Source: Glaciozyma antarctica PI12
Lineage: Eukaryota; Basidiomycota; Microbotryomycetes; Kriegeriales; Camptobasidiaceae
Direction of reading: 5' to 3'
NCBI GenBank assembly: GCA_002917775.1
Contig: KZ627148.1
Coordinates: 1,790,183 to 1,854,182 of the forward strand
DNA: 64,000 nucleotides
Shown here: in pieces, positions 8,250 to 60,300 of the stretch
Numbering within the stretch: position 1 is the stretch's first letter
Layout: each line of letters begins with the position of its first letter
The notes under the pieces: model-generated
Told to the model about the DNA's origin: nothing
Database searches by the model: none
Seen by the model: only the letters and a program-made list of their open reading frames with translations
Position numbers and translations under genes: made by a program

Positions 8250-11200
8250 ATGTCAGCGTTTGTCCTGCGCCGAACCGCCAACGCCGCCACGAGGGGGTCC
8301 TTCTCCTCCCTCCCCGCTCGCTCTCTTCACTCGGCTAGCCGTCCCACCCGCACCCTCACTCCCAGTCGCCAGCCCTCCCGATCGCTCGCGACCGCCCTCT
8401 CCCCCGTCACCGCCGGAGTCCCCAAGACGTCAGTGTTCGCCCCCCTCGACTCTTTCACGCGCCGCCATGTTGGACCTCAGCCTTCGTCCGTCAACACGAT
8501 GCTCGAGTACCTCGGCTTCAAGACGATGGACGAGTTCATTGCCGAGTGCGTGCCCCCGTCGATTAGGATCGGGGAGGAGGTCGTCTCGGAGGTCGGCCCC
8601 AGTGGAATCGCGGCGCTCAGTGAGCAGGAGCTCCTCCGTCGGGCAAAGGAGCTGGGATCGAAGAACCAGGTCTTCCGATCGTTCATCGGAATGGGTTACC
8701 ACCAAGCTGTGAGTAGCGCGTGCCTTGCGTGGAGAGGAGGAGGAGCTGACGGGCTCTGCAGGTCGTGCCTCCTGTGATTCTCCGCAACATGGTCGAGAAC
8801 CACGCGTGGTTCAGTCAGTACAGCCCCTACCAGGTACGTTGATGTGGGCGTGGCTACTCTCAGAGCGCGAGCTAACTCGTGTTCCTCTCCTCCAGGCTGA
8901 GATCGCGCAAGGTGAGCCGCTTGACAAGGTGTGAAGGAGCACGAGGAGCTAGCTAACTTCAGCTCTGTGATCAGGTCGCCTCGAGTCCCTCATCAACTTC
9001 CAGAGTCTCACCACCTCCCTCACCGGCCTCGACATTGCCAACGCCTCTCTCCTCGATGAAGGTACCGCCGCCGCCGAAGCGATGGTCATGGCCTACGGAC
9101 AGCTCAGGAGCGCCAAGCACACCTTCTTCGTCGACCGTGGTGTCCTTCCCCAGACCCTCGCCGTCGTGCAGACCCGCGCCGCTCCCTTTGGAATCAAGGT
9201 CGTCGTCGGCAACGTCAAGAAGCTCCTCGCCGAGGGCGGAGACGCCGCTCAGCAGAAGGACCTCATCGGAGTCCTCCTCCAGTACCCCGACCTGCGAGGA
9301 GAGGTTACCGACTGGAAGGCGGTCGCGGATCGCACCCACGAGCTCGGCGGATTCGTCACTTGCGCCACCGACTTTCTCGCCCTCACGGTCCTCACTCCTC
9401 CCGGAGAGTGGGGAGCCGACATGGCGTTCGGAAACAGTGCTCGCTTCGGAGTCCCGATGGCGTACGGAGGACCCCACGCTGCGTTCTTCGCCTGCACCGA
9501 CGCGCTCAAGCGCAGGATGCCTGGACGCCTGATCGGACTCTCCAAGGACGCCGAGGGACGACCTGCGTACCGCCTCGCCCTCCAGACGCGTGAGCAGCAC
9601 ATTCGTCGCGAGAAGGCGACGAGCAACATCTGCACCGCCCAAGCCCTCCTCGCCAACGTCGCCGCCATGTACGCTGTCTACCACGGTCCCGAGGGACTTC
9701 GCCAGATCGCCGAGAAGATCCACGGCCTCGCACGCGTCGTCAAGGCCGGCGTCGAGAAGCTCGGCCACAAGGTCATCAACGAGACCTTCTTCGACACTCT
9801 CACCATTCGCCTCAACGGTACCGCCTCGTCCGTCGTCCACCAGGAGGCCGTCCGCAAGGGCATCAACCTTCGAAAGATCGACGGCGACCACGTCGGCGTC
9901 TCGTTCGACGAGAGCAACTCGCTCGAGGACATCGTCGACCTCCTCAACGTCTTCGTCACCATCAAGGCCGCCGCTTCGTCCCGCAGCAAGAGCATCCCTT
10001 ACACCACCTCGTCCCTCATCAAGTTCGCCGACGCGCTCAACATCGCCGCGCCTCGCCCTACCTCCGCCTCGCAGGGCTTCCTCTCGACTGGCAAGGACCT
10101 TCCCCCGATTCAGTCCCCCGCCATCCCCGCCCACCTCTCTCGCACGTCCGAGATCCTCACTCAGTCGGTCTGGAACTCGTACCACTCGGAGACGGACATC
10201 CTTCGTTACATGCACCACCTCCAGTCGAAGGATCTCTCGCTCGTTCACTCCATGATGTGCGTTGTCGTTCGTTGTTTGCATGCGTTAATTGCGGCTCGCT
10301 GACGTTGGTTCGCGTGCAGTCCTCTCGGAAGTTGCACGATGAAGGTGGGTCTTTCGCTTGCGAAGCTTTTCGGGGGATTCTCGCTGACTCCTTTTCTTCA
10401 CAGCTCAACTCCACCGTGCGTAGAGCTCGTTCCTAGTGACTTCACGCCGCCGCTGACCCTTTTTTTTCTCGACAACCTCAGACTTCCATGACCGTGAGTG
10501 ACCTTTCTCGGACCTTTCGAGCGAGAGCTAACTTCTCCCCGCTCCAGCCATTCACCTGGGCCGAGTTCTCGAAGATGCACCCCTTCGCACCTGTTGAGCA
10601 GGCTCAAGGCTACAAGGAGATGATGGAGGCAAGCTAGCCGTTCCTCCTACGCCGTACCTCTCACTGACCGCTCTCTCGTCGCAGGAGCTCGCCAAGGACC
10701 TCAGCACCATGACTGGCCTTCCCGGCTGCTCCCTCCAGCCCAACTCTGGAGCTCAGGGCGAGTACGCCGGTCTCTCCGTCATCCGCGCCTACCACCACTC
10801 TCGAGGAGACGAGAAGCGCGATATCTGCCTCGTCCCCGTCTCTGCTCACGGCACTAACCCCGCCGTGCGTTCTTCTTCGCTCCTCCTTGCTTCTCCTCGC
10901 TAACGTGCTGCTTTAGTCCGCCATCATGTCGGGCATGAAGGTCGTCTCCGTCAAGGTTCACGATACCGGCTACCTCGACCTCGAGGACCTCCGCCTCAAG
11001 GCCGACCAGCACCGCGACAACCTCGCTGCTTTCATGATCACCTACCCGAGCACGTACGGAGTCTTCGAGGGAGAAGTCGAGGAGGCTTGCGACATCATTC
11101 ACAAGGCTGGAGGACAGGTCTACCTCGATGGCGCCAACTTCAACGTGCGTCGCCCTTTCACGTCTTCTCGATGCGATCTGACTGACTCGTCGACAGGCCA

Positions 11201-14327: not shown

Positions 14328-16745
14328 ATGAGCCTCCTCGACCAACTCTTCTCACACGTCCGCGGCGTCGACCCTCTGCTCCTCGCCGGAGGAGCTCTAG
14401 TGCTCTACGTCGCCTATCTCCTCGCCTACCACTCAGACGGGAGTGCTCTTGGTACGCACCTTTGCCAGTCCTCGAAGGCAGAGCTGACTCCAGCACTTGC
14501 AGGCACCTACCGTCGGCCGGACCTCGCGTCCTGGCCTGGTGGAATCCCCTTCCTAGGCAACACTCACCAAGCCGCAGGTTCATCTTCTGCAGTGTCGGCC
14601 AAGGATCACGCTGACGCTCGTTGAATGACCGCAGGCGAGAAGCGGTTGCTCGAAGTTTGGGCGAAGGCGAACGCCGAATCGAGGCTCACCAAGGATAGGA
14701 AGCCGTTCTCCCTCGTTCTCCCCTGGATGAGGTTAGTCTTGCGGGCACTATGAGTGGAGAGCGATGGAGAAGGGAAGCTGACTAGAGGTTCTGCACCAGG
14801 TGCATTGATAGTGCGTCTTCCTGCGTGGAGCTAGCCGACGTCGGTTCCTAATCGCTTCTGTCCTCGCAGTTTCGAAGCCCGAGTACCTCCAGCACGTTCA
14901 GAAGGACAACTTCCAGAACTACGTCAAGGGGAATCTCCAGGCAAACGTTATGAAAGATGGTGCGTTTCGAGCGAGTCTCGTTACGAAGGGAGCGGCGAGC
15001 TGACTTTGCGTTTTGTTTCTGCAGTTCTGGGAGAAGGCATCTTTGCAACTGATGGCGAGAAGGTCAGTATTGTGACTTGCCCGAAGCCTGTGGCGATTCC
15101 AGATCTCTCGCGCTGCTGCTGATCTCGTCCTGTCTCCAGTGGAACGTCCAGCGCAAGGCCACCTCCAAGATTTTCTCCGCTGCTAACTTCCGAGGCTGCA
15201 TCACCAACTGTATCGACGCCGATATCGCCAAGCTCCGCACCATCGTCGGGAACCACGCCGACGCTGGAGAGGGTGAGTCTCGGTCGGCTCGCTAGGCTTC
15301 ATCTTTGCTGATCTTGTCGTCTCCGACCAGCTTTCGATCTCAGTGTTCGCTTTCTGCCTCTTCAAACACTTTCCAAGCTGACGATTGCGTCTCTAGGCTC
15401 TCTTCTTTGCCTTCACTCTATCCTCGTTCACCTCGATGGCATTCGGGATCGACATTGGCGCGCTCAAGGTCGACGACGACACCCCAGTTCCTTTCGCTGT
15501 TGCTTTCGACTACGCTCAAGGCCGTATGGACGCCCGCATCTTCGAGCCAACCTGGCCCATCACGGAGCTCTTCAGCGCGGAAGGTCGTAAGATGCGGAAA
15601 GCGACCAAGACCATTTCCAACTTTGCGTACGGGATTATCGACCAACGCGCCAAGGACGTCGAGAGCGGATATACGAGCGAGAAGGGAGCGGGGTCGACGG
15701 ATCTCCTCACGCTTTACATGGCGTTGCGGGACGAGAAGGGCGAGCCGATGTCGCGCAAGTCTCTTCGTGATGCGTGCGTGATTCTCTCCGAGCTCTGCTC
15801 TGTTTGCCTGCTGAGCTCGTTCAATCCGCAGCGTAATCAACCTCATTATCGCGTGCGTGCCTGCGACTCCCAATGCCCGTACCTCGCTGACCGCCTTCCC
15901 CATTCCAGAGGACGCGATACCACCGCGCAAGCTCTCAGCTGGACCTACTTCCACCTCATCGACCGCCCCGAGCTCGTCGAGCCTCTTCGCAAGGAGGTCG
16001 ACGAATTCGAGACCGTCGACTACGACAACTTCAAGGACTGCAAGCAGACGCTCGCTGCGTTCCAAGAAGGTCTTCGTCTCCACCCCTCTGTGCCCAAAGT
16101 TCGTACTCCCACTCTCGACGCCATTCCGAGGTACTGACGAAGCGACGCAGAACATCAAGACGGCTCTCGCAGACGACCAAATCCCTCACGGCGGACCGTT
16201 TATTCGCAAGGGCGAGAAGGTCGTTTGGAACGATTGGGAGATGGGGAGGAACGACGAGATTTGGCCGAACGCGAGCGAGTACACGCCTTCGCGCTGGATC
16301 GATGGCGAGAACAAGCTCACGAAGGAGACGCAGTGGAAGGCTCACTAGTGAGTCGTTCGCGGGTGACTACTCGGCGAGCTTCTCGCTGACTTGATTCGCG
16401 CGCAGCTTCAACGGTGGACAGCGGCTTTGCTTGGGTCAGAATCTCGCACTTTACGAAGCGACGATGGGTGCGTCTCTCTCGCTTTCTTCCGAGGCGCGGA
16501 ACTCACGATTCGACGCTTGCAGTCATGACGACCCTCTCGCGCGAGTTCGACCTCACTTTCGCTCCCGGGTACCGCGAGAACGTCGAGATGATCGACTTGG
16601 GAACGAAGGAGCGAACTCCGCTGTATCTCTCCTCGCTCACGCTTCCCATGGTTCGTCCTCGTCCTTACCTCTCGTCCTTTCGCAATGCTGACGAGCTTCG
16701 CAGAACGCACCTCTCATGGTCAAGGCCACTCGGCGAAAGCAGTAG
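14328..16745 (+). CDS. Cytochrome P450, CYP52/CYP63-like
   Basis: A microsomal monooxygenase; related fungal families hydroxylate alkanes and fatty acids. The N-terminal anchor helix is LLLAGGALVLYVAYLLAY, followed by a linker with PGGIPFLGNTHQA. Visible P450 features in order: C-helix WNVQRKATSKIFSAANFR, I-helix VINLIIAGRDTTAQALSW, K-helix AFQEGLRLHPSVPK with the ExxR motif, a PFIRKGEKV strand, the PERF-like region ASEYTPSRWID, and the heme loop FNGGQRLCLGQNLALYEA, in which Cys is the iron ligand. The C-terminus is basic (MVKATRRKQ). At least 12 introns, including a 14-nt exon. The substrate cannot be told from sequence. The family guess rests on the AFDL..LFFAFTL and GGQRLCLG patterns. Confidence 0.93.
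15331..15344 (+). other. 14-nt microexon in P450
   Basis: Acceptor ACCAG before and donor GTTCGC after. It supplies AFDLS and is the only exon choice here that keeps the frame into ALFFAFTL. Confidence 0.75.
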
Positions 16746-27931: not shown

Positions 27932-29396
27932 ATGCTCTCTCGTTCTCTGTTCAAATCTACCGCACGACACTCGGGAACGCGTTCAATCATGTCTGGAGTC
28001 TTCAACAGCAGCCGTCTAGCAGGCAAAACAGTTCTCATCACCGGCAGCTCAGGCAAGCAAGATGGCGCCTTCCGGACCCGCATCCTGCTAACGTCGTCGT
28101 CCGCTCCTTCGTTGCAGGTGGTATCGGAAAGGAGACCGTACGTACTGCATTGCCTATAAACGCTCAAGCTGATCCACAGCATCTCAGGCGATCCTCTTCG
28201 CTCGCGCTGGAGCCAACCTCATCCTCACGGCTCGCCGGCAGCCTCAGCTCGGTTCGTCCTTCCTACCGCGCGGCAAGACCAGTCTAACCTACTTGGCAGA
28301 CGAGGTGGCCGCACTGGCCAAGATTGCAAACAAGGAGGGAGGAACGGGTCAAGGCGGGGACGTCGCTACCCTCACCCTCGACATGCAAGATCGCAAGGCG
28401 GTTGGCGAGCTGCTGAGTCGGATCCCGGACAAGAAGATTGACATCCTCGTCAACAACGCCGGTGAGCTTTGACGTGACTGGAAGGGAGAGAGGGAGGGGG
28501 CTGATGAGTGTCGCGTAAGGGATGGTATACGGGACTGAGAAGGTGGGGGAGATCGCGGAGAGCGATATCGAGACGATGTTCAGTGAGTGTGATGCTAGAA
28601 AGGACGGCGAGGTAGAGCTAACGGGGCTAGCGCAGACACCAACGTCCTCGGATTGATCACTCTCACGCAGCTCATCGTTGCCCGTGCGTTTTTTGGATTT
28701 CACTGGAGCCTCCCTCTAGAGTTCGGCTTACTAATCGTCTGAATTTGGTTTGGCAGAGTTCAAGAAGCAGAACTCGGGACAGTGCGTTCATCTCCTCTGC
28801 TCGAATCTCCGAATCTCACCCCTCCTCTCCCTTTCGCAGCATCATCAACCTCGGTTCCGTGGCAGGCCGCGAAGCCTACGCAGGAGGAGCTATCTACTGC
28901 GCTACCAAGTACGTCTCGTCGTTCACCTCTTCCGTCAACGGAACCTGACCTCGCTTCCTTCGCAGGGTATTCCTCCGCATCCCCAAGCCTTTTCTTTAGC
29001 TCATTAACGCGTTTAATACAGCACGCTCTCCGCGCCTTCTCTGGTGCTCTTCTCAAGGAGCTCGTCAGCACCCCGATCCGCGTTACCGAGATTCAGCCCG
29101 GTTCGTCGCGTCCCTTCCTCCCTCCGCCTCCGCCTCCCCTCGCTCCGGCTGATGCGGCTGATGCTACAGGGATGGTGGAGACCGAGTTCAGCGTCACACG
29201 CTTCCGCGGCGATCGCGAAGCCGCCGACAAGGTCTACGCGGACCTCCAGCCTCTTGTCGCGTACGATATCGCCGAGGAAATCGTTTGGGCCGCCAGCAGG
29301 CCTGCGCATGTCAACCTCGTTGAGGTGTACGTGATGCCAAAGTGCCAGGCTGGTCCTGGAGTGATTCACCGTGGTGGTTACGGAGATGCGAAGTAG
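27932..29396 (+). CDS. Short-chain dehydrogenase (NADP-dependent 3-hydroxy acid dehydrogenase-like)
   Basis: Similar in motifs to yeast YMR226C/YdfG enzymes that oxidise L-allo-threonine, serine and related 3-hydroxy acids. Rossmann start KTVLITGSSGGIGKET, then FARAGANLILTARR (Arg suits NADP), TLDMQDRKAV, DILVNNAGMVYGTEKV, NTNVLGLITLTQL, IINLGSVAGREAYAGGA, catalytic IYCATKHALRAF (YxxxK), IRVTEIQPGMVETEFS and VAYDIAEEIVWAASRPAHVN. The first ATG gives a Ser/Arg-rich leader (MLSRSLFKSTARHSGTRS), and a second in-frame ATG at 27989 starts MSGVFNSSRLAGK, so dual targeting is possible. Intron 1 is GC-AG. The YCATK-HALRAF joint needs a single-nucleotide exon. Confidence 0.94.
28053..28117 (+). other. 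GC-AG intron in the SDR gene
   Basis: Donor TCAG|GCAAGC, branch CTGCTAAC, acceptor GTTGCAG. Removal restores TGSSGGIGKET, the cofactor-binding motif. Confidence 0.92.
28909..29021 (+). other. Two abutting introns separated by one G (one-nucleotide exon or stwintron)
   Basis: Intron A 28909-28965 (donor GTACGT, branch CTGAC, acceptor CGCAG) and intron B 28967-29021 (donor GTATTC, branch ATTAAC, acceptor ATACAG) leave only the G at 28966. ACCAA + G + CAC reads TK-H and gives YCATKHALRAF. Removing A first creates AAG|GTATTC, a strong donor for B. Removing the whole block as one intron shifts the frame. Confidence 0.78.
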
Positions 29397-57300: not shown

Positions 57301-60300
57301 CAAGGAGCTCAGAGAAGACTCACAGGTTCCTCCATGTGTTCGCGTAGGTGTACCCAAAGGTTTGCTGGAGGTAGCGAGATCCGACGACAATGGCACTTCC
57401 GGTTTCGGCGCCGGCAGTGGCGCAGACTTGGTTGACGATGTCGATACCGGGGTAAGCAGGTCCGCTGGGGACGAGGCCGGCGCAAGGAACGTTGAGTGTG
57501 CGGACTGGCAACGGGAGAGGTTGTCAGTGCACGTCGCAGGGTAATTAGGTGGGGATACACGCACATTCGTTGGTGAGGAGGGCTTCGAAGGCGAACGAGA
57601 CGGGCTGGGCGTAACTGAGCCAGCGGAACCAGACGACCATGGATCTGACGCGAGCCGTCAGTATGATACTTCAAACACATAAAAAAAAAAAACTTAACGT
57701 ACGGTCTTGGTACCGAGTACCCAACATAGATAGCGACGACAAGAACAAGTATACCGGCGAACCTGCCGCCAAAGAATCAGTCAAGCGAGACGAGGAAGGG
57801 AAAAAAGCGATTGTGCACTCACATGGTGGCGTTAGCTTCGTGGCGGTTCGACGACGCAAGCGCCCGAAATAATGCCAGCATTGCGAGGTTCGCCACAAAC
57901 GTGAAAAGAATGAATATGAAGAATTGTTCGGCGCTAGGCTGCAAGCCCGCCATGAAGTAGAGGATCAGCTGCGAAAAACGCACCGAATCAGTTTTTGTTC
58001 GAAAGCGCTGGCATGGATCTTTACGCACGTCGAAGAAGAAGATCGTGACGAACTTGAAGGGAATGTCGACCAGATTGAGAGCGAGCATGCTGTGCGGTAT
58101 CGTCAGCGCGCGCTCGAATTCGTAAAAGGGGGGGGAACGTACTCGGCCGACGGTCGAAGCATCCCGTATTGGCGATGACGAACGACGATGGGGCGTTGCG
58201 CATAACTCGTCGTAATCTCTGCCATGCCAGTGAAAGAGTTGTACTGTGCGCGAAGACAGGTCAGCAAGGAATGGGAGAGGGGAGGCAAAGAATTTACGCA
58301 CGAGGATAGCGAAGAAGATGAGACCACCGCGAGAAAAGAACCCGGAGGTGTCCTTGGGCATTTGGAAGAAGACGCTGAATAAGATGGAGTGGTCAGCGTT
58401 GCTCGAGGACGAGGCGAGGGCGCAGCAACTCACGATCCCTGGAAGAAAGGGAGGCGTCAGTGCGTGCGCGCAAAGATTGCTCGAGAGTGAAGCGACTCAC
58501 GATGATGAGGGCCTGAAATATTGCGGCGACAGTCGTGATGATGAGCGTAGGGAGTTCTCCCATCTGCATCTGGAAGCGGCGAACCATGGCAAGGCGAACT
58601 TGCATCCTAGTTCGCGAAACGCGATAGATCAGTTCGCGCTCGCATGCCCGCGGAAAGAAAGGAACGAACGGATAAGAAATGAGGTAGCTCGACTCTTTGC
58701 TGAGGTGCTTCGCACGCTCGGCCCGCGCACTCTCGCGGAAAGCGTTGAGCTTGTCCTCTGAGTACTGCTTCTTCTGCGCCGCGACCTCTGCAACGTTGGC
58801 GCGTCCGATCTGGCTGTTCTGGAAGTAGGCCGCGAACTCATCGGCCGTCTTGGGAGCCTTGCTCTCGAATCCCGGGCGTACGAAGCGTCCCTTGGGGTCG
58901 GTGACCGCGACGAGGAAATCTGCAGACGTTTGACGGTTCTGAGGCCTGCGAGAAGATCGTCAGTGCACTTGCGAGCGGTAGGAGAACAGAGACGACGTAC
59001 TGGTAGCCCATGTTGACAAAGTGCTCGACAGCCGATCCCATAGGGCCGAAGTAAGCCATGCGACCCTCGTAGACGACGCAGACCTTGTCGAACAGGGTGT
59101 AGATCTGCTCTCCGCATTGACTGGAAGCAGATTACGTTAGCAAGGAAGATAGAAGCGAGCGAGGCACGTACTAGATGGAGAGAATCGTGGTGAGGTTCGT
59201 CACGTCGGTGGCGATGCGCAGAGCGCGAGTGTACTCGAGAGCAGTCGAGGCGTCAAGTCCGCGAGTCGAGTTGTCGTGGCAAGCGATCTTGGCTCCAGTC
59301 GTCATCTGCTTGCGCGATTAGCTCGCACTCCGACCGTCGAAAAGCGAAAGAAGTCGCACCAGCTCCGCGATAGACACTCGCTTGCGCTCTCCTCCGGAGA
59401 CTCCACGAATCACGTCGTTCCCAACCTTTGTGTTGAGCGTGTGGCGCAGACCGAATAGAGTGATCAGAACCTCGCGCGTATCGTCGATCGCTTCAGCACG
59501 AGTACCGAGACGAGCTCCTGAAGCGGGAGTTCGGGTGGCGGCGGCGAAGTTGAGAGTCTGGCCGACGGTGAGGTTAGGAAGGTGGCGGTCGTCCTGCGCG
59601 AGATAAAGGCATCAGCGAAAGGACAAAGAGGAGGAGTAAGAGAGAACTCGCCTCGGGGAGGTACACGATGTCGCCGGCGTGGGCCTTCCGCATCTCGTCG
59701 GGGGAGGCTCCGTCGTAGCTGATCTCGCCTTCGACGGAGGTGAAGGATTCGGTGTTGTTCGAGAGAACCTTTAAAAATGAACTGCAGCCCGCCCCAGGGC
59801 TGCACAAACGATATCAGCTTCGCGAACCCGATGCAAAATCAACGAACGACTCACCGACCCAGGACCAAGAGCATCTCTCCTGGCCGAACGACGCCCGTAA
59901 AGTCCACCAGGATGTTCTTGCGAGTGAGATGGCGCATCGCCTTGATCGCGCTTCCGATCCTTGTAACGCCCGTGAGGATCTCTCCCATACTCGGTCCGTA
60001 GGCGAGCCCCGATCCATCGCCAGTGACCTTGAGCTGCTCGAACGATACTCCAAGCTCCCGGCGAAGGACTCCCTCCTTCTCCTCCTTGCGGAAGAGGTGG
60101 TTTAGGTGCTGCTTGTAGTTGAAATCCTCCGCGCTGGGGTCCTGGGTGCGGGTCGAGAGGCGGGTCGAGGTGCGCGTGAGGCGGCGCGCAAGCTCTTGTT
60201 GCTCGCTCTTGTCGAAGAAATCGAGGTCTTCGTGGCGGGTGACGGGGCGAGTGAGGCTGGAGGAGCCTTTCACGGTGGTCGAGTCGAGTACGGTGTCCGA

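Follow-up and report, generated by a model that had tools for sequence, protein, structure and literature searches.

The window analysed, a 64-kb stretch of DNA from Glaciozyma antarctica, contains at positions 27932-29396 of the plus strand a gene for a short-chain dehydrogenase (SDR) that comprises 11 exons and 10 introns and encodes a product of 292 residues (Table 1). The product matched the Pfam model PF00106 with 159.6 bits (cut-off 26.6), indicating that it belongs to the short-chain dehydrogenases/reductases. Its translation contains the sequences GSSGGIG, NNAG, and YCATK, which we take to be the glycine-rich, NNAG, and YxxxK motifs of this family. The best-scoring model, NF007829, describes the YdfG 3-hydroxy acid dehydrogenase equivalog; the score of 195.3 bits lies below its curated cut-off of 411, and the product was not assigned to this equivalog. 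The top match among solved structures was the yeast oxidoreductase YMR226C (PDB 3rku; 218 bits, residues 22-286), which shares the catalytic segment, including the single residue that separates Lys from Ala. Unlike the catalytic segment, residues 1-21 of the window protein fall outside the alignment. The first 19 residues, upstream of an alternative start at 27989, possibly form a mitochondrial presequence. Homologues aligned over about 93% of the product, and the closest annotated ones among the matches listed were from Sporobolomyces (73-74% identity). Two protein searches returned, among the matches listed, no close relative with a possibly mis-annotated copy (best identity 74%, or 76% with residues 1-191 as the query).

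Table 1. Predicted structure of the SDR gene and features surrounding its ninth exon (positions in the window).
Feature	Start	End	Strand	Basis or remark
SDR exon 1	27932	28052	+	Open frame and homology; shorter start possible at ATG 27989
SDR intron 1, GC-AG (GCAAGC...TTGCAG)	28053	28117	+	Its removal restores GSSGGIGKET
SDR exon 2, 20 nt	28118	28137	+	
SDR exon 3	28188	28251	+	
SDR exon 4	28300	28461	+	
SDR exon 5	28520	28582	+	
SDR exon 6	28636	28683	+	
SDR exon 7, 25 nt	28757	28781	+	
SDR exon 8, ending ...GCT ACC AA	28840	28908	+	AA, bases 1-2 of the codon for the catalytic Lys
Intron 8, 57 nt, canonical (GTACGT...ACCTGAC...TTCGCAG)	28909	28965	+	
Branch site of intron 8, ACCTGAC	28943	28949	+	A at 28948
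Exon 9, single G	28966	28966	+	Base 3 of the Lys codon
Intron 9, 55 nt (GTATTC...CTCAT or TTAAC...TACAG)	28967	29021	+	
Branch region of intron 9	28998	29008	+	AGCTCAT (A 29003, scored) or TTAAC (A 29007, by eye)
In-frame TAG reached if intron 9 is kept	28997	28999	+	Sequence
SDR exon 10, beginning CAC GCT CTC	29022	29100	+	His-Ala-Leu
SDR exon 11	29170	29396	+	Terminates with TAG

Between exons 8 and 10, a single base, G28966, is placed between an AG and a GT and has a complete intron on either side, the second donor being poor at positions +4 to +6. A sequence-only reading of this DNA had proposed two introns, each with a donor, a branch site, and an acceptor, parted by one G, and both are present at the coordinates it gave. 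Inclusion of G28966 (AA + G + CAC) specifies Lys-His and gives the segment YCATKHALRAF, whereas the frame of this conserved segment is lost if the base is skipped. The cDNA junction expected from a one-nucleotide exon is GCTACCAAGCACGCT. The junctions GCTACCAACACGCT and GCTACCAAGTACCACGCT, or the joining of ...ACCAA or ...ACCAAGTAC straight to CACGCT, would be contrary to it.

The spacing of residues in the family was assessed with 152 homologues, consisting of the best 120 of 6,938 matches and 32 additional ones from the best 120 of 3,802 (E 0.001). By direct count among these listed homologues, the second residue past the catalytic Lys was Ala in 151 and Ser in one, indicating that exactly one residue separates the Lys from Ala or Ser in all 152. 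The residue just after the Lys was His (110 homologues), Phe (23), Ala (15), or Tyr (4), and variant rows included K-A-A-V and K-H-S. The earlier claim that G28966 is required for the motif and the frame was thus upheld both by the family spacing and by the loss of frame upon skipping.

Alternative splice chains were enumerated with GT or GC donors at 28861-29000 and AG acceptors ending at or before 29046; the minimum intron length was 35 nt, and a chain could contain no more than two introns. This gave 192 chains, including the chain without intron, of which 54 were open. The chain containing the one-base exon had both the top profile score (483.6 bits versus 477.5 for the second) and the top summed splice score (24.8 versus 19.1). 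Since summed scores favor chains with more introns, the order per intron matters; the same chain ranked first by this measure also. Products obtained through the acceptors at 28987 and 28999 (463.6 and 468.6 bits) lacked the catalytic Lys, and each of the remaining open chains scored below the chain with the one-base exon.

The product second by profile score results from a single intron of 109 nt (28913-29021) with the donor TAC/GTCTCG, which keeps the frame and yields an enzyme with an extra Tyr, YCATKYHALRAF. Its profile score is just 6 bits lower, and the Pfam and NCBIfam models showed the same preference for the one-base-exon product (159.6 versus 151.9 bits and 195.3 versus 191.2 bits, respectively). 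The donor, however, scored -6.06 and formed no stable pairing with U1 in the register tested, and a second inserted residue was found in 0 of the 152 listed homologues. The sequence-only reading had dismissed this alternative as giving one residue too many for the family, and both the donor score and the spacing agree with it. We regard the single 109-nt intron as very improbable.

Splice signals were compared with usage in the same genome by applying a self-trained ab initio gene finder, which allowed exons of any length, to 264 kb made up of the window and 200 kb of contig C1 (18,692 bases masked). The yardstick introns are predictions of this program on the 264 kb, not annotation, and only those located between well-scored coding flanks were used because the program still merges neighboring genes. 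The 136 confident introns had a median length of 55 nt, which introns 8 and 9 fit; five were at least 100 nt long and none was of 105-120 nt. For scoring, the SDR gene and introns of at least 110 nt were left out, leaving 130 introns, 126 of them with a GT donor. Donor usage in the sample is unusual, as GTGCGT, GTACGT, and GTTCGT dominate and C occupies position +4 in 79% of 128 donors. GC donors, such as that of SDR intron 1, were found in 4 of 132 confident introns.

For intron 8, the donor was at the 61st percentile of the sample, the branch site ACCTGAC was at the 22nd, and the acceptor TTCGCAG was exceeded by none of the 130 sample introns. For intron 9, the acceptor TACAG was ordinary (30th percentile) and the branch site was at the 14th percentile. 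The intron 9 donor, GTATTC, scored -2.11 before removal of intron 8 and -0.92 after, with only 1 of 126 donors scoring lower each time (bottom 1%). This donor has no consensus at positions +4 to +6, whereas G is present at +5 in 95% of 128 sample donors and, in the exons listed for other genes of the window, in all 15 donors of a glycine dehydrogenase gene, all 12 of an ABC transporter gene, and 8 of 9 of a cytochrome P450-like gene. Three sample donors inspected as possible examples of comparably weak sites look like mispredictions. The weakness of GTATTC is the main result against a one-nucleotide exon.

The predicted pairing of the intron 9 donor with the U1 5' end was -5.1 kcal/mol before the first splice and -5.7 kcal/mol after, at least as strong as that of 66% and 75%, respectively, of 126 sample donors. 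This fair value reflects base pairs on the exon side and in GTA. The same estimate gave only -1.4 kcal/mol (29th percentile) for the intron 8 donor, which is clearly strong, and little weight was therefore given to an estimate that contradicts genome usage at that site. The donor AAG/GTATTC, described in the sequence-only reading as strong, is thus moderate by predicted U1 pairing and very low by genome usage; the description was overstated, and the gain that the donor draws from the first splice is small.

We considered that the assembly may lack one base at the exon edge, or that the gene may recently have lost it, the true intron being of about 113 nt and extending from GTACGT to TACAG. The strong GTACGT donor could be joined to the distal acceptor, the two-intron reading depends on a poor second donor, and the 18-contig assembly may contain a one-base error. 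A missing base would, however, leave as coincidence a good branch site and an unexceeded acceptor (0 of 130) at the typical distance of 57 nt, followed exactly by a purine and GT. The likelihood of such a coincidence was estimated by holding the outer donor and acceptor and replacing the interior with dinucleotide shuffles or with random genomic stretches (40,000 each). Among shuffled interiors, 406 of the 40,000 contained an AG-purine-GT site with both halves of 45-75 nt, and none reached the observed combined score. Among genomic interiors, which may contain real splice sites, 1,715 of the 40,000 had an AG-purine-GT site; the acceptor and branch scores together were reached by none and the combined acceptor, branch, and donor score by 12. 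In addition, introns of the length that a missing base implies are absent from the sample, and the other ten exons of the SDR gene and the listed exons of the neighboring glycine dehydrogenase gene are all open. We therefore hold a missing base to be unlikely.

The gene finder predicted 695 internal exons in the 264 kb, including 57 of at most 12 nt, many of them in merged predictions. Twelve of the 695 were of 1 nt, and only that at 28966 lay between two coding-scored flanks. Local alignments of intron 9 with intron 8, the upstream gene, and the next exon were no better than those of shuffled sequences, giving no sign of copying from these sources. No second genomic copy of the intron 8-9 pair was detected at E 0.001, the only match being the pair itself. 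Predicted RNA folding of 28880-29050 was unremarkable (z -1.69). Together, the evidence makes a one-nucleotide exon at 28966 the best-supported reading, and a probable one. The sequence itself shows the base with splice signals on both sides, the reading frame, and the spacing kept in the family, and from these the splicing, its order, and its efficiency are inferred. By the same evidence, the gene probably encodes an SDR-fold dehydrogenase resembling YMR226C, with a constitutive one-nucleotide exon that completes the codon for the catalytic Lys.

Splicing of this pair is expected to proceed by intron definition. Simultaneous occupancy by spliceosomes of sites located one base apart is very unlikely, pointing to sequential removal of the two introns; the authors of the Arabidopsis study also argue against the simultaneous handling of introns one base apart (PMC4674806). 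Either order leads to the same mRNA. Intron 8, a textbook intron with a strong donor, a good branch site, and an excellent acceptor, has the stronger signals and would thus most likely be removed first, bringing AAG before GTATTC. Intron 9 would then be excised from the product of the first splice. If intron 9 were retained, translation would stop at its in-frame TAG, giving a truncated protein.

This sequence of events resembles that of a stwintron, the label used in the sequence-only reading, with intron 8 as the internal and intron 9 as the external intron, removed in an obligatory order. The introns are in tandem, their removal would be sequential, and upon the first splice the bases ahead of the second donor turn from AGG into AAG, with the improvements in donor score and U1 pairing reported above. 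As defined in the literature, the external intron of a stwintron works only once the internal one has been removed (PMC5639578), the internal intron interrupting the donor, the branch site, or the acceptor of the external one. At the SDR locus, however, intron 9 has an intact GT, branch region, and AG before any splicing, the external intron is uninterrupted within its consensus, and only the exonic context preceding the second donor changes, to little benefit. Since both introns have complete ends beforehand, the label does not apply, and a true stwintron with an obligatory order is highly unlikely.

The G+C content of intron 9 (0.44) is the lowest of the ten SDR introns, although introns 2 and 6 are not far above it (0.48 and 0.47, respectively). 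The asymmetry between a textbook intron 8 and a weaker intron 9 is consistent with intron 9 having been gained later, one base past a phase-2 intron that was already old. A different origin, in which a base is lost and a cryptic AGGGT is then recruited, is proposed by the authors of the Fusarium study (PMC12940212). More speculatively, intron definition could be so strict in this lineage that exons of any size, however small, are spliced in, and intron 9 could be a recent gain one base past the older intron 8, leaving a young, weakly marked exon with a donor not yet optimized, and retention of intron 9 could serve as an off state. We offer this as a tentative proposal that is rather doubtful; if it were true, one-base exons should be findable across these genomes.

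Other genes of the window contain very short exons. A gene for a pleiotropic-type ABC transporter has a 5-nt exon, GGATC (58434-58438, minus strand), between introns 58375-58433 and 58439-58500; splice signals are strong on both sides, and the spliced segment aligns without gaps to CDR1 (PDB 9iuk). In the glycine dehydrogenase gene, two 12-nt exons (10404-10415 and 10482-10493, plus strand) encode the eight residues that follow GSCTMK. Eight residues at this place were found by pattern in 116 of the 120 listed glycine dehydrogenase homologues and by eye in 2, the last 2 being without the GSCTMK anchor. With such 5-nt and 12-nt exons in the window, the one-base exon would be the extreme of a local tendency. 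An 11-nt exon (14800-14810, plus strand) was also predicted in a cytochrome P450-like gene, and in the glycine dehydrogenase gene the intron that follows 10628 is of the GC-AG type.

Identity figures for the glycine dehydrogenase were obtained with a query taken from the first version of the gene finder, which merged genes. Among the matches listed, identity was 77-79% to Microbotryomycetes sp. JL221, Meredithblackwellia, Microbotryum lychnidis-dioicae, and Phenoliferia, 73% to M. silenes-dioicae, 72-76% to Sporobolomyces, Rhodosporidiobolus, and Rhodotorula, and 78 and 80% to two unnamed proteins. The SDR is nearest to Sporobolomyces (at most 74%), whereas the glycine dehydrogenase is nearer to Microbotryum lychnidis-dioicae, Meredithblackwellia, and Phenoliferia. 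The two genes thus point in different ways; the source is a Microbotryomycete that has no close relative among the matches listed, and the placement in the Sporidiobolales implied by the sequence-only reading is unproven.

In recursive splicing at zero-nucleotide exons of Drosophila, the first splice creates the exonic flank of the donor used next, as it would at the SDR locus; the introns in Drosophila are long, no exon base is kept, and there is no contribution to coding. In the literature searched, nuclear one-base exons are described for very few gene families, namely plant APC11 (PMC4674806) and VPS55 (PMC8831610) and Fusarium CYP621A (PMC12940212), and a mitochondrial one-nucleotide exon is described for placozoan cox1. 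No basidiomycete nuclear one-base exon was found in the literature searched, in which coverage of subscription papers was thin. Exon 9 of the SDR gene is probably a further case of this known phenomenon and, judging from its DNA, a candidate basidiomycete instance. Such a case would show an independent origin in a second fungal phylum and tolerance of one-base exons by a short-intron genome. It would also provide a small test case for the order of splicing and for how the final bases of an exon influence the choice of donor, in a gene whose catalytic site standard annotation could mis-model.

The pair shares with Pezizomycotina stwintrons two adjoining U2 introns in a fungal gene and consecutive excision by intron definition; in these stwintrons the internal intron lies within the donor, the branch site, or the acceptor of the external one and breaks it up, whereas a single base separates the end of intron 8 from a donor that is intact (PMC5639578, PMC12403724). 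The plant APC11 and VPS55 genes likewise have a one-base exon between two introns, whose successive removal is proposed by the APC11 authors. They differ from the SDR gene in being documented by RNA evidence and, for APC11, by reporter mutants; the APC11 interval is of 422 nt, and the VPS55 donors are conserved as GTRAGT (PMC4674806, PMC8831610). Fusarium CYP621A is also a fungal gene in which a G flanked as AG/G/GT keeps a conserved enzyme motif in frame, and the length of the combined intron, over twice the median, gave a clue there (PMC12940212). That case, in an ascomycete P450, is reported in 20 orthologous genes and has RNA reads (PMC12940212), whereas the candidate SDR exon belongs to a basidiomycete dehydrogenase and was recognized in the sequence of one genome.
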